A stretch of 46,800 nucleotides of DNA from a virus. The stretch covers positions 1-46,800 of IMG/VR virus record IMGVR_UViG_3300037117_000022. One strand, written 5' to 3'. Positions 33,495 to 46,800 of the stretch are shown in pieces; the first letter of the stretch is position 1; every line of letters starts with the position of its first letter. The notes beneath the pieces are model-generated. The model ran no database searches and was not told where the DNA came from. It was given only the letters and a program-made list of their open reading frames with translations. The position numbers and the translations under genes are program-made.

Positions 33495-33938
33495 TCAGTT
33501 TGGATTTGAATTGTTTACCCGCAGCGCCTGCTCCAGCAGCTCCACTCGCGCTGCGATATGAATGTTGGATTTCATCTGCTTCTCAAAGCGCGAAATACCG
33601 TGCATTACTGTCGTGTGGTGCTGTCCGAACATTCTCGCGATACCGTGGAGTGTTAGCGACGTGTGTTTGCGAAGCAGGTACATTGCGGCGCGACGGGGAA
33701 CGAGATAGCACGGGGAGTTGCTGCGCTTAAAGATATATTCCGCATTGATTCCCCACTGCCGACAGACGCACCCGACAATCTGCTCTCCGGTTGGCTCTCC
33801 CTTGTAAACCGGAACCGGATTGCAACTTAGCACCGACACCTCAGCCCGCAACGCCCTCATGTGAGATTCGATCTCTGCCATGTGTCGCTGGATTGCTATT
33901 AGAGGCGCATAGGCCCGTTGAACTATTGCTGCGCTCAT
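33495..33938 (-). CDS. DnaA domain IV-like DNA-binding protein, 147 aa
   Basis: ATG overlapping the previous stop (ATGA), with AGAGGGGCGAA. Residues 1-40 are a helix. Residues of about 48-120 match the DnaA C-terminal fold: IVGCVCRQWGINAEYIFK, PRRAAMYLLRKHTSLTL, IARMFGQHHTTVMHGISRFE. The last follows the DnaA signature of D/H-H-T-T-V. There is no AAA+ ATPase domain. DnaA domain IV reads origin boxes, so this protein probably binds phage DNA in replication or control. It sits beside the initiator gene. Confidence 0.8.
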   Translation of the reverse strand: MSAAIVQRAYAPLIAIQRHMAEIESHMRALRAEVSVLSCNPVPVYKGEPTGEQIVGCVCRQWGINAEYIFKRSNSPCYLVPRRAAMYLLRKHTSLTLHGIARMFGQHHTTVMHGISRFEKQMKSNIHIAARVELLEQALRVNNSNPN

Positions 33939-34462: not shown

Positions 34463-35228
34463 TGTTTTGCTCCCAAAGTGCGTCGTCCCAAGTAAAGCGT
34501 CGTTCCTTCAAGACCGTATGTAATGAAGGGATTAGGTGTTTTTTCTCACGCGGCCAGTGGTGCACGATCTGAGCGCACCGCCGCAGTTCCTGCGCGATAT
34601 ACTCAGCCGCCTCAAGCCGTTTCTTGCCATCAACCGCAACCAGCTCTTCAATCGCGTCGAAGGCCACAGAAATCACTTCGATTCCGCCGGGCTTGGGCCA
34701 AAGCCGCTTGAACCGCCGAATCCACTCTTCGCCGTCAAGTCCGGGCTCACTTTCAAACCCAACTTCCCTAATTTCTTTAACTTTTGCAGTTTTAGTTCCT
34801 AAATCAACTACAAGTGCATTTACATCTACATCTACAGACAACGGCGTGACAGAGGGTGTGACATCATGCGTGACATCTGGTGTGACACAACGGTGCTTTT
34901 GCTGACGCTTCCGATCCTGTGCTCGCTTTTCTTCGTCGCGCACCATGCGGCGGTTGTAGATGATTCCTTCTGCTGTCCGGCTCGGGACCGCCACGTCGTC
35001 TAGCTCCAAGAGCAGGGTCGAGTACGTCTGAGCATCAACGCCACACTTGCTGGCAATGAACTGCTCAGTCATAGGCCGACGATTCGCCTGAAGGTATCCG
35101 CGTCGTTCCGAGTCGTGCATCACAATTAGCATCCGCCACCACAATCCCTGCGCTGCGATAGAGCACCCACTCACTTCGTCTTTCAACCAATCGGCTGGAT
35201 AAATCAGAATCGCCGGGTCCTTAGCCAT
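34362..35228 (-). CDS. Putative replication initiator (lambda O-like layout), 288 aa
   Basis: The ATG follows AGGGGTAGTGG. Residues 1-110 form a winged-helix-type domain typical of phage replication proteins (DPAILIYPADWLKDEVSGCS, GLWWRMLIVMHDSERRGYL, NRRPMTEQFIASKCG, then VRDEEKRAQDRKRQQKHR). Residues 112-156 are a low-complexity linker whose DNA holds four 12-bp iterons and an AT-rich tract. The rest is a helical domain with Trp (EEWIRRFKRLWPKPGG). Domain order and internal origin match lambda O, which binds the iterons and recruits the helicase loader. Confidence 0.78.
   Translation of the reverse strand: MAKDPAILIYPADWLKDEVSGCSIAAQGLWWRMLIVMHDSERRGYLQANRRPMTEQFIASKCGVDAQTYSTLLLELDDVAVPSRTAEGIIYNRRMVRDEEKRAQDRKRQQKHRCVTPDVTHDVTPSVTPLSVDVDVNALVVDLGTKTAKVKEIREVGFESEPGLDGEEWIRRFKRLWPKPGGIEVISVAFDAIEELVAVDGKKRLEAAEYIAQELRRCAQIVHHWPREKKHLIPSLHTVLKERRFTWDDALWEQNNGKPTEPQHTASDGKDRIRARLGLTRAPADRPI
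34761..34840. other. AT-rich tract beside the iterons (candidate unwinding element)
   Basis: This stretch of the initiator gene is clearly richer in A and T than its surroundings, with runs such as aatttctttaacttttgc. It directly borders the iteron block on the 3' side of the gene, the same order as in lambda ori. Confidence 0.55.
34846..34893. repeat. Four GTGACA iterons at exact 12-bp spacing (candidate replication origin)
   Basis: GTGACA begins at 34846, 34858, 34870 and 34882, always 12 bases apart. The second half of each unit varies (two middle copies share GTGACATC). On the coding strand they encode the repeated V-T-P/V-T-H phrases of the initiator linker. Twelve is not a multiple of the helical turn, but it is a multiple of three, so a purely coding repeat is possible. 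Confidence 0.6.
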
Positions 35229-35245: not shown

Positions 35246-35533
35246 CTACAGTTTCCCACGTGATTCGTTGAGTGCGTCTCGCTGCTCTTGTGTCCGTTCG
35301 GTAGCAAGCTTTTCCAATAGAGTGTCGAAGTTTGCGCTTTTCAAGTTACAGAGTTGACAGAGCCCGTCCAAAGTGCCTTCAACTTCTTCTTCGCACCAAC
35401 TGCACACAGCATGGTTTCGGGTTGCGGCGCCTAGACGCCGGAGGCTTAGTTCCTGCTGGTGACGGCTGGCTTCCTGGTGACGGTTGGCGTCTGCTTCCAT
35501 CTTTGCTGTCCATCGAGGGCGAGAAAGGGTCAT
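35246..35533 (-). CDS. Zinc-ribbon protein, 95 aa
   Basis: ATG overlapping the previous stop, with AAGGAGCAGGT. VCSWCEEEVEGTLDGLCQLC near residues 43-62 is a clear CxxC-x12-CxxC ribbon between helical charged ends (RHQEASRHQQELSLRRLGAA; LEKLATERTQEQRD). It may bind nucleic acid or a host protein. It sits between the initiator and an HNH gene. Confidence 0.68.
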   Translation of the reverse strand: MTLSRPRWTAKMEADANRHQEASRHQQELSLRRLGAATRNHAVCSWCEEEVEGTLDGLCQLCNLKSANFDTLLEKLATERTQEQRDALNESRGKL

Positions 35534-39135: not shown

Positions 39136-40035
39136 TTAAAGCCAGATCACCCCGATGTTGTTAACATCGCAGGAATACGCCTTCCCCTGTGACGTATCCA
39201 GTTGCACGGATGCCAAGAACCACGGCTTTGAAGTATCGGCTTTTCCGGCTTGCAGGGCGTTGACTTGGCTATATTTCCCGTTCACCGCAATGCCCAAATT
39301 CGTCTTTGAGCCACTTACAGGGTCAATCAGGAACAGCTCATCTACCGCAATCCAATCCCCCGCCGTGTAGCTGAAGGGCACTTTCGTGTCGATCCAAGCC
39401 CGGTTCAAATAGTCGAAATACCTCAGCGTCATGGTGTTGAAGTCCAACTGCCATGCCAGATCAAAGGCGCTCGTGCCGTCATAGTCTTTCGCTTCGTTCT
39501 CCAGAGCATTGCGTACCGCCATCGCCGCCGCGCTCAGGCGGTAATCGACGTGGTAGGCCACCAAGCGCACGCCGGTTGCTGGCAGGGCCGTCTTTAGATA
39601 CCAATAGCAGTTGTAACCCGTGGCTGCGGGCGTGACCGTGATCGTCGCGCTGCCATCTCCATTTACCACCCAAGTGCTCGTTCCGGTGGCCGGATTCCCT
39701 TTCGAGTTCCCTGCTACCCCTCCAGCCAGTATCCACCCTGGCGCTTTCTGCAAGTTGGTGAGCTGATTGAGGTTCTGGAACAGCGGGGAGTTTGGCAGTC
39801 CGCTTTTGCTTAGTGCCGCGGCGAGTGCTGCCTGTAGCGCAGCGATCTGTGCGGTATCGACGCTTAGGAAGGTTTGGGCAGCAGCGAGTTGTGCCTGCGT
39901 GACTACGAGCTGATTGTTGAGGGTGACGACATTCGCATTGAGCCCGTCGATGGTGGATTGAGCAGCAGCAAGCGGAGCCGGAAATTGCCCGACTAACGCG
40001 TAAAGGGCTGATAGGCTTGGATCTGGGTTAGCCAT
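39136..40035 (-). CDS. Coiled-coil plus jelly-roll-like protein, 299 aa
   Basis: The ATG follows TTGGAGTAAAAC. Residues 1-75 are an Ala/Gln/Leu coiled coil (NVVTLNNQLVVTQAQLAAAQ) that likely trimerises. Residues 90-299 are a Trp/Tyr-rich beta domain (GYNCYWYLKTALPATG, AFDLAWQLDFNTMTLRYFDY) reminiscent of carbohydrate-binding sandwiches. This is a fibre-like plan, yet it lies far from the fibre cluster and has no signal peptide. It may be a capsid fibre or a second receptor-binding protein. Confidence 0.68.
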   Translation of the reverse strand: MANPDPSLSALYALVGQFPAPLAAAQSTIDGLNANVVTLNNQLVVTQAQLAAAQTFLSVDTAQIAALQAALAAALSKSGLPNSPLFQNLNQLTNLQKAPGWILAGGVAGNSKGNPATGTSTWVVNGDGSATITVTPAATGYNCYWYLKTALPATGVRLVAYHVDYRLSAAAMAVRNALENEAKDYDGTSAFDLAWQLDFNTMTLRYFDYLNRAWIDTKVPFSYTAGDWIAVDELFLIDPVSGSKTNLGIAVNGKYSQVNALQAGKADTSKPWFLASVQLDTSQGKAYSCDVNNIGVIWL

Positions 40036-40744: not shown

Positions 40745-41362
40745 ATGACGCTAGAGTTCAACGAATCGCTGTTTTGGGCCAAAGTCGAGAAGTCTGACGG
40801 CTGCTGGTTATGGCATGGTGCGATAGGCGAGCGTGGCTATGGAGCATTTCGTATTCGCAAGCCTCGCAAGACAATGCGAGCGCACCGCATAGCCTACTTC
40901 CTGAAGCACGGGGAACTTCCAGCGCTACTGATGCACTCCTGCGATGTACGCCGCTGCGTCAACCCAGAACACATCCTTAATGGATCTCCCGCACTTAACA
41001 CGGCGGACATGATGAGCAAGGGACGGCACCGGGTCGGCAAGGGGCTATGCGGCGACTTGAATCCGGCCCGATTGCATCCTGAATTGCTCCCGCGCGGCGA
41101 GAAACATGGGCGGGCAACAATCACTGAGGCCAATGTGTTATTGCTGCTTGCGGATCGCGTGCTAGGCGCCAGTCTCGGAACCCTCGCGGAACGGTATAAC
41201 GTGAGACGCGATACGGTATGGCGCATCATTTCCGGGAAGTCTTGGTTGCACCTTCCCAGGCCAGTAGGCGTAGCGCTTCGGCTACGGACCAGAGCGGCGT
41301 TACCTCGTGACGGTCAGGCCAAAGCACGAGACAAGGAAAGAAAGGGTGCTCGGAAAGGCTGA
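40745..41362 (+). CDS. HNH homing endonuclease, 205 aa
   Basis: Plus strand, opposite to its neighbours. The N-terminus LFWAKVEKSDGCWLWHGAIG is the usual zinc/DNA-contact opening. KTMRAHRIAYFLKHGELP, MHSCDVRRCVNPEHIL and SPALNTADMMSKGRH form the HNH core. EKHGRATITEANVLLLL with LAERYNVRRDTVWRIISGKS is a C-terminal helix-turn-helix. The last 45 residues run antisense to the end of the metallophosphoesterase gene, so the element seems inserted at that gene's 3' end. No strong promoter was found upstream. Confidence 0.85.
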   Translation: MTLEFNESLFWAKVEKSDGCWLWHGAIGERGYGAFRIRKPRKTMRAHRIAYFLKHGELPALLMHSCDVRRCVNPEHILNGSPALNTADMMSKGRHRVGKGLCGDLNPARLHPELLPRGEKHGRATITEANVLLLLADRVLGASLGTLAERYNVRRDTVWRIISGKSWLHLPRPVGVALRLRTRAALPRDGQAKARDKERKGARKG

Positions 41363-42257
41363 AATACCGGCGAGCGTAGCCGCTTTTGAGATTAAGGTTT
41401 CCGGTGTTGATGACGACCCTGGTGCACTGCCCTTCCCGGTATTTTGCGGCCATTGGAACGTGCGTATCGCCCTGCATCGCGATTTCTCGGTCCTGCCCTT
41501 CCATCCTGAGATAGCGCATGCAGGCGTGGGCGGGATTCAGCATTGAACCGCCGCGAAACTTGTGCGAACTGGCAATCTTGTAAAGCTGGCTCCCTACTCG
41601 GACATCCACATGCCCGATGTTGGCGTGGTAAATCACCCGCGAGCCAAACACGTCGTTCCAAAGGTCATAGCCGATAGACTTTTCGCTTCGGCTGGATTGG
41701 TGGTTATCGTGGGTTGCCCACGCTACCTTGTGCTTGATTTCTTCAATCCACGATTCGATGAAGAGTCTTTGCATTCCTGGATCTATGATCTGAGCGCACG
41801 TTTCTGCGACCGATCGAAGCCCGGTGGCCCACTCCGTGTAATCCCCGATCAGCGAGACGTATAGGTTAGGGGTGTTGTTGATCTCGTTGGTGAACTGGGT
41901 AAAGAGCTCGTACTCTGCCCCAATAGAGCCGACGTGCATATCGGAGAGGGTAGCGAGGATGATGGGTGCCTTCCCATCCCCAAGCGTGATCTCGGCATGG
42001 TCCTGGGAGTTTGAGGCCCTTCGCTTGAGTTCCTGGCCTTGCTTTAGCCACGGCGTCATCTCGCGCCACGTTAGGTCTGCACGCTTCTTGGTGGGCTGCT
42101 CTCCGGGCGGTAAGGGCCGGTGCATGTAGTTCGTGACCGTACTTTTGGAAAGCCGTAGAGATCGTGCAATAGCATCCCTTGACTCGCCACCCGCACGCCG
42201 ACTCAGAATCTCGGCATGAACCTTCGCGGGCACAGCTCTGCGATCTACGTCAGGCAT
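41226..42257 (-). CDS. Helix-turn-helix plus metallophosphoesterase, 343 aa
   Basis: The ATG follows CGGAGACTGA. Residues 10-50 are a resolvase-like HTH (ESRDAIARSLRLSKSTVTNY). Residues 95-300 are a calcineurin-like phosphoesterase with the metal set: LSDMHVGS (D-x-H), IGDYTEW (G-D), WATHDNHQ (in place of GNHD), SSHKFRGG and QGDTHVP (in place of GHTH). It is a DNA-binding phosphoesterase or nuclease by inference. The last residues are antisense to the HNH gene, which may have replaced the natural end. Two dyads and a -10 box lie just upstream. Confidence 0.83.
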   Translation of the reverse strand: MPDVDRRAVPAKVHAEILSRRAGGESRDAIARSLRLSKSTVTNYMHRPLPPGEQPTKKRADLTWREMTPWLKQGQELKRRASNSQDHAEITLGDGKAPIILATLSDMHVGSIGAEYELFTQFTNEINNTPNLYVSLIGDYTEWATGLRSVAETCAQIIDPGMQRLFIESWIEEIKHKVAWATHDNHQSSRSEKSIGYDLWNDVFGSRVIYHANIGHVDVRVGSQLYKIASSHKFRGGSMLNPAHACMRYLRMEGQDREIAMQGDTHVPMAAKYREGQCTRVVINTGNLNLKSGYARRYFSLSEHPFFPCLVLWPDRHEVTPLWSVAEALRLLAWEGATKTSRK

Positions 42258-42308: not shown

Positions 42309-42324
42309 GTGATGTATGTGTCAC
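42309..42324. promoter_or_regulatory. Operator-like dyad 1, GTGA-N8-TCAC
   Basis: A 16-base palindrome with half-sites GTGA and TCAC. An identical half-site plan occurs at 42349-42364, exactly 40 bases away, close to four helical turns, so both face the same side of the DNA. Confidence 0.55.
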
Positions 42325-42348
42325 TTTGGGGGGAGAGACGGTGGGTTT

Positions 42349-42364
42349 GTGACGTAAATATCAC
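42349..42364. promoter_or_regulatory. Operator-like dyad 2, GTGA-N8-TCAC
   Basis: The same half-sites and spacing as dyad 1, here extended by one base to TGTGA/TCACA. The pair could bind two dimers of one regulator, phage- or host-encoded. The spacing of 8 differs from the CRP site, which has 6. Confidence 0.55.
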
Positions 42365-42411
42365 ATTTGGTCCGGGGATGGGCAGTTTCGCGACACCCCC
42401 GGTACGCCTCC

Positions 42412-46323: not shown

Positions 46324-46800
46324 CTAGTTGCAGGTACAAGCCCCAGTTGAACTCACCACTGTCGAGCAATGACCGATGGTGTGGTCGGTGCGCTCGCATA
46401 CGGCGTATCCGGGGTTGGCATTGTAAAAAACACCCACCGTGCCGTTAACAACGCTCGGATAGGTAAAACTCCAGCCGCCGACTGTAAAACTGCTTCCACC
46501 TACAGTGAATAAGCCGCTGTTGACGGTCAATCCGCCGTTCATCGTCTGCGCCCCTGCCCATGATTGAGTTCCAGACGTGGAGGGTATTTGTCCCGCAGCA
46601 TCAGGCCATGTGTTACTAAATCCCCGCTGGATTATAGAAGCAGAGCCAAGATTCAGGCCGCTGTTGACGGTCAATCCGCCGTTCATCGTCTGCGCCCCTG
46701 CCCATGATTGAGTTCCAGACGTGGAGGGTATTTGTCCCGCAGCATCAGGCCATGTGTTACTAAATCCCCGCTGGATTATAGAAGCAGAGCCAAGATTCAG
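46324..46800 (-). CDS. Beta-helix tail fibre, 3' part of the gene at 1-1813
   Basis: The frame is open from the right edge to the stop at 46324 and is the same frame as 1813-1 after circularisation. It contains two perfect copies of a 48-residue repeat (NLGSASIIQRGFSNTW, then GTQSWAGAQTMNGGLTVNSG). These are followed by VGGSSFTVGGWSF and a Cys-containing tip (YAVCERTDHTIGHC, ending TGACTCN). The four Cys near the end may form disulfides at the fibre tip, consistent with export to an oxidising compartment. Confidence 0.8.
   Translation of the reverse strand: MNLGSASIIQRGFSNTWPDAAGQIPSTSGTQSWAGAQTMNGGLTVNSGLNLGSASIIQRGFSNTWPDAAGQIPSTSGTQSWAGAQTMNGGLTVNSGLFTVGGSSFTVGGWSFTYPSVVNGTVGVFYNANPGYAVCERTDHTIGHCSTVVSSTGACTCN
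46513..46800 (-). repeat. Two perfect tandem copies of a 144-bp unit in the fibre gene
   Basis: Units 46513-46656 and 46657-46800 are identical and each is 48 codons, so copy-number change keeps the frame. The part at 1-127 is the same unit repeated by the contig overlap. Because a 127-mer occurs in both units, the assembly cannot tell how many copies the phage really has. Confidence 0.92.
46674..46800. repeat. Terminal redundancy, right copy (identical to 1-127)
   Basis: This end is the same 127 bases as the left end and lies in the second tandem unit. Removing it gives a 46,673-bp circle with the fibre gene intact. Packaging ends cannot be deduced from it. Confidence 0.95.

Follow-up and report, generated by a model that had tools for sequence, protein, structure and literature searches.

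We propose that positions 34761-34893 of the window, by which we mean the whole stretch of 46,800 nucleotides of viral DNA analyzed here, very probably form a theta-type phage replication origin located inside the gene of its initiator. Origin activity itself, as well as binding by the N-terminal domain of the initiator, unwinding and loading of the host DnaB helicase, are what we infer from the array of short iterons and the AT-rich tract found at this place (Table 1). Our comparisons are best read as pointing to an in-gene origin whose mode of action would be that of ori-lambda and SPP1 oriL, the iterons being short, however, and spaced by about one helical turn.

Table 1. Positions of the features discussed in the text (in the window, unless a locus is named).
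Feature	Position	Strand	Remark
Initiator gene, 288 aa	34362..35228	-	HTH-type N-domain aa 1-113; predicted disordered linker ~114-165; C-terminal part weakly predicted as helical
Iteron 1 (first in gene direction)	34882..34887	-	TGTCAC, coding strand
Iteron 2	34870..34875	-	TGTCAC, coding strand
Iteron 3	34858..34863	-	TGTCAC, coding strand
Iteron 4 (last in gene direction)	34846..34851	-	TGTCAC, coding strand
AT-rich tract 3' of the iterons (gene direction), candidate unwinding element	34761..34838	.	73% AT peak
CATCTA hexamer array, 3.3 copies	34817..34836	+ (non-coding strand)	TRF
Downstream overlapping gene, 175 aa	33935..34462	-	no Pfam, PHROG or PDB match
DnaA domain IV-like protein	33495..33938	-	Bac_DnaA_C 6e-17; same cluster
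mEp043-type alternating GTCAC/GTGAC array	L398:1856-1927

The initiator gene and its iteron array

The first-pass annotation had described four GTGACA iterons at 12-bp steps in the linker-coding part of an initiator-type gene, followed by AT-rich DNA, and both parts of this description were confirmed. GTGACA starts at 34846, 34858, 34870 and 34882, at steps of exactly 12 bp, the coding, minus strand reading TGTCAC. The whole window contains just 13 GTGACA/TGTCAC words, nine of them scattered outside the array. Taking the frequency of the word across the homologous loci as background, such a cluster has a Poisson probability of 2e-7. The iterons occupy codons 114-128 of the 288 codons of the gene and read C-VTP-D-VTH-D-VTP-S-VTP (encoded linker peptide: VTPDVTHDVTPSVTP). 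Valine is written GTC in all four units and the preceding codon always ends in T (4/4), whereas the wobble bases of threonine (A, G, A, G) and of proline or histidine (A, T, C, G) are variable (Fisher p = 0.026 against the invariant core wobbles). When codons were shuffled synonymously, leaving the protein unchanged and following the codon usage of the phage itself, at least four TGTCAC appeared in 10 of 200,000 shuffles. On the other hand, 12-bp steps are no exact multiple of 10.5 bp, which counts against an origin. The gene that lies upstream of the initiator gene displays, at positions 35456-35490, a near-repeat, CTGGTGACGGCTGGCTTC / CTGGTGACGGTTGGCG, which contains two further GTGAC spaced by 18 bp.

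Behind the iterons, the tract 34761-34838 includes a 60-bp stretch of 73% AT, which ranks among the top two of the window for AT content at this length, and the 45-nt AT maximum of the initiator gene is found at 34769-34813. The CATCTnCATCT array at 34823 is the sole one in the window. A DnaA-trio reading of the CATCTA tract was considered and found unsupported.

In the AlphaFold2 model, built from a 45-row alignment, pLDDT values lie mostly between 95 and 98 for the N-domain and below 50 for residues 130-160, and the C-terminus is weakly predicted to be helical. According to this model, the array would be situated in a disordered linker behind a confidently predicted HTH-type N-domain. The protein had no Pfam match at E 0.01, neither to Phage_rep_O (PF04492) nor to DUF1376 (PF07120); it belongs to an initiator family without a Pfam model of its own. 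PHROG gave weak matches only, to replication initiation and replisome organizer families. The viral fold search (BFVD) returned DUF1376 and replisome-organizer proteins, the DUF1376 matches having E 2e-5 and probability 1.00 with low full-length TM scores of about 0.3. Matches in the PDB fold search were weak and of HTH type (best E 0.012).

The annotation had also stated that the phage encodes no polymerase, and indeed neither a polymerase nor DnaB was found among the window ORFs that were scanned (the large ORFs and the early genes). The product of the overlapping gene downstream gave E = 0.09 in a two-sequence BLAST with the neighbor of the homologue L243; that it is a helicase loader is a guess based on gene position only. 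Two genes downstream of the initiator, the DnaA domain IV-like protein is devoid of an AAA+ domain. Initiation based on DnaA boxes was rejected, the two boxes of the window being not above chance. Among the relatives, the homologue L237 has matches to primosomal and replication-initiation families of PHROG. Its gene is the immediate successor of a DnaB helicase gene, and that of Pam1 gp56 comes after a replicative helicase.

Conservation of the repeat among homologues

Single-sequence scans with the window protein found no homologue. An alignment with Pam1 gp56 and the locus L164 retrieved 160 loci, 80 viral and 80 from bacterial genomes, including Acidobacteriota, Hymenobacter and Proteobacteria. 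For the analysis of reading frames, homologues were picked by their N-terminal domain alone, ignoring the linker. In L237, GTCAC recurs at steps of 12, 12, 11, 11 and 11 bp in frames 2, 2, 2, 1, 0 and 2. The tandem part of L243 shows GTCAC/GTGAC at steps of 12, 11, 11, 12 and 11 bp. In L296 the arrangement is inverted, four GTGAC (steps 11, 12, 12) facing three GTCAC (steps 11, 11) across a step of 16 bp. Owing to the rotating frames, one DNA word encodes VT, CH, M-S-P, LSR or RDK in these three genes. It had been asked whether relatives would keep the periodicity of the DNA or only the protein linker. The answer is the DNA: the VT peptide is lost and GTCAC/GTGAC is kept at 11-12 bp in three frames. 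Since the frame rotates while the word keeps its steps, conservation concerns the DNA word and not the peptide. At the level of sequence, this comparison shows that the linker repeat is conserved as DNA, independently of the encoded peptide, and that the DNA itself is under selection.

The word differs from one homologue to another. At least three TGTCAC/GTGACA were observed in only 3 of the 160 homologues, the rest having other words or no significant array; GTWAC, AGCAAA, GGATAA and CCAGAAG are among the words found in other linkers. A linker 6-mer repeated beyond synonymous shuffling (p<0.05) was detected in 40 of 158 homologues. For the N-domain and the C-terminus, which served as controls, the counts were 1 and 2, and among 96 cluster representatives the corresponding numbers were 25, 1 and 1; this maximum-word test also scores the TCT/TCA tract in some loci. 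In the N-domain tree the GTSAC homologues are not grouped (4 changes for 4 rows), which would mean repeated gain or loss of the word, unless the tree lacks resolution. A search for the bare pattern of four TGTCAC was rejected as a marker of origins, being unspecific, with many matches in NVTG repeats of tail fibers; loci obtained in this way served as examples only and were kept out of the frame analysis.

The tract behind the array is also found throughout the family, and the order DNA-binding domain, iterons, AT-/T-rich tract and C-terminal domain is maintained across it. The AT maximum of the gene falls within the linker in 129 of 151 homologues (25% expected), and this also holds for 32 of 36 representatives without a poly-serine tract. 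CATCTnCATCT occurs on the coding strand of 45 of the 160 homologue genes, versus one locus elsewhere, with a CATCTT array at the place equivalent to that of the CATCTA array in the window. At least five serines follow the linker repeats in 78 of the 160 homologues (L237-L396). Their codons are TCT/TCA in 579 cases out of 590 (407 out of 416 in 54 cluster representatives) and never AGC/AGT, whereas AGY makes up 29% elsewhere. The window gene has no serine tract and carries the CATCTA array on the opposite strand instead. Slippage may contribute to the serine tract, and its restriction to TCT/TCA suggests a role at the DNA level.

Relation to known origins and alternative explanations

A lambda-like origin had been claimed for this region. 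In lambda, the origin lies in the middle of the O gene, in the order DNA-binding domain, iterons, AT-rich tract and C-terminal domain, and replication uses the host polymerase (PMC7466680). The layout of the claim stands, iterons within the initiator gene being followed by an AT-rich tract in the window as in the whole family. What does not stand is the protein family and the form of the iterons: lambda O is a Phage_rep_O protein and the window protein, without a match to it, is not a member, while lambda iterons are inverted repeats of 18-19 bp about 20-24 bp apart and those of the window are direct 6-bp words every 12 bp. By analogy, SPP1 gene 38/oriL offers a model that is no more distant than lambda. 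It has direct repeats in the gene of the replisome organizer and an AT-rich unwinding element (PMC6316719), and the window likewise shows direct in-gene repeats with an adjacent AT-rich element, a likeness of layout. SPP1 encodes a helicase and a loader of its own and has a second origin.

DUF1376 (YdaU-type) proteins, to which the viral fold search points, also have linker arrays in their genes (TGTCAC in L033, L054 and L106, GTAACG in L189), but the window protein lacks the Pfam DUF1376 match. In ydaU of the E. coli Rac prophage (DUF1376; L397:5120-5977), TGTTCAAACA is present three times in the linker, the third copy being inverted. Rac is known to carry an active origin, oriJ (PMC3945230). 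The putative origin of the Francisella phage KIRK has been reported as repeats within an initiator-type gene with an AT-rich region (PMC7924643); its protein belongs to another family, and the likeness concerns the reported layout. We found no report of frame-independent one-turn iterons in the present initiator family in the open-licence literature.

The Phage_rep_O genes of the mEp043 type served as a positive control, lambda's iterons being proven at that place. The gene common to mEp043, Sf101 and SEN22 has GTCAC/GTGAC in its linker at steps of 20, 12, 12, 12 and 11 bp (gene nt 356-427), which matches the position of the annotated lambda iterons (nt 349-433 of gene O). The 11-12-bp steps resemble those of the window, but the sites alternate in orientation and the protein belongs to another Pfam family. 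Codons within these iterons are synonymously frozen (1 of 16 variable versus 76 of 188, p = 0.004). In the relative L458, ATCCCTCAAAA-type lambda iterons stand at the same place, and its identity with the gene of the mEp043 type, about 0.4-0.6 ahead of the array, goes up to 0.8-1.0 after it, with a mosaic break just behind.

One alternative is that the initiator binds its own gene for the control of transcription or copy number, replication starting elsewhere. Binding sites of this kind within a gene would look identical. The cumulative GC skew, which the first-pass annotation had offered as a check at 34.8 kb, does not support that position: its minimum is at 39,738, 4.9 kb from the array. 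GC skew is weak evidence here, since nearly all genes are on one strand and it may follow transcription. An operator would leave unexplained both the family-wide AT-/T-rich tract behind the array and the positional match of the Rep_O control to the lambda iterons, and we consider it unlikely. Still less likely is a recent, functionless tandem duplication of a 12-bp unit. The steps are perfect and two of the three adjacent unit pairs are fairly alike; yet the spacers and wobble bases have diverged and the six core bases have not, and diverged homologues have, at the same place, arrays that are built from different words and spaced by 11 or 12 bp. Finally, tail-fiber genes with NVTG or similar repeats do yield the same DNA pattern, but the idea that the VT-repeat linker is needed as a peptide, with the DNA repeat as a by-product, is highly improbable, being at odds with the synonymous shuffles and largely refuted by the rotation of frames in the homologues.

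Dyads near 42.3 kb had been said to resemble the iteron core. They do exist (GTGA-N8-TCAC at 42309-42324, TGTGA-N8-TCACA at 42348-42365), but as spaced dyads and not as direct GTGACA repeats, and no link between them and the iterons was found. They lie just upstream of the gene 41226-42257(-), whose product has an HTH-like N-terminus, and they look like operators. The contig ends on the right (46513-46800) with two exact copies of a 144-bp unit inside a repetitive reading frame; this duplication may be genuine or may have been created by the assembly.

Proposed mechanism and significance

Coming back to an origin at 34761-34893, we suggest that the N-domain would bind the four TGTCAC sites, about one helical turn apart, and that the resulting complex would open the AT-rich CATCTA tract next to it. 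Together with neighboring early proteins, the C-terminal part could then load the host DnaB helicase, after which the host polymerase would take over. Loading of the host DnaB is proposed because neither a polymerase nor a DnaB was found among the scanned ORFs of the phage. As the array is located in codons of a flexible linker, the binding domain and its sites pass on as one unit, and their specificity can shift jointly.

We lean slightly towards a more general view, in which the window family, DUF1376 and part of Phage_rep_O would form a widespread class of initiators with their origin in the linker codons: short, frame-independent words at one-turn spacing, then a T-rich hexamer tract that in many members is a poly-serine stretch made of TCT/TCA only. 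Domain and array would constitute a single specificity cassette, and the serine tract would be a DNA element and not a protein feature.

With these results, phages whose hosts have received little study gain a probable origin. DNA words at one-turn spacing across reading frames provide a test for in-gene origins that needs nothing but sequence. The specificity of the initiator could become predictable from linker codons in many phage genes labeled hypothetical or DUF1376, and the common poly-serine linker is suggested to be a DNA element. These proposals are open to a direct test at the bench in lambdoid phages such as mEp043, whose listed host is E. coli.
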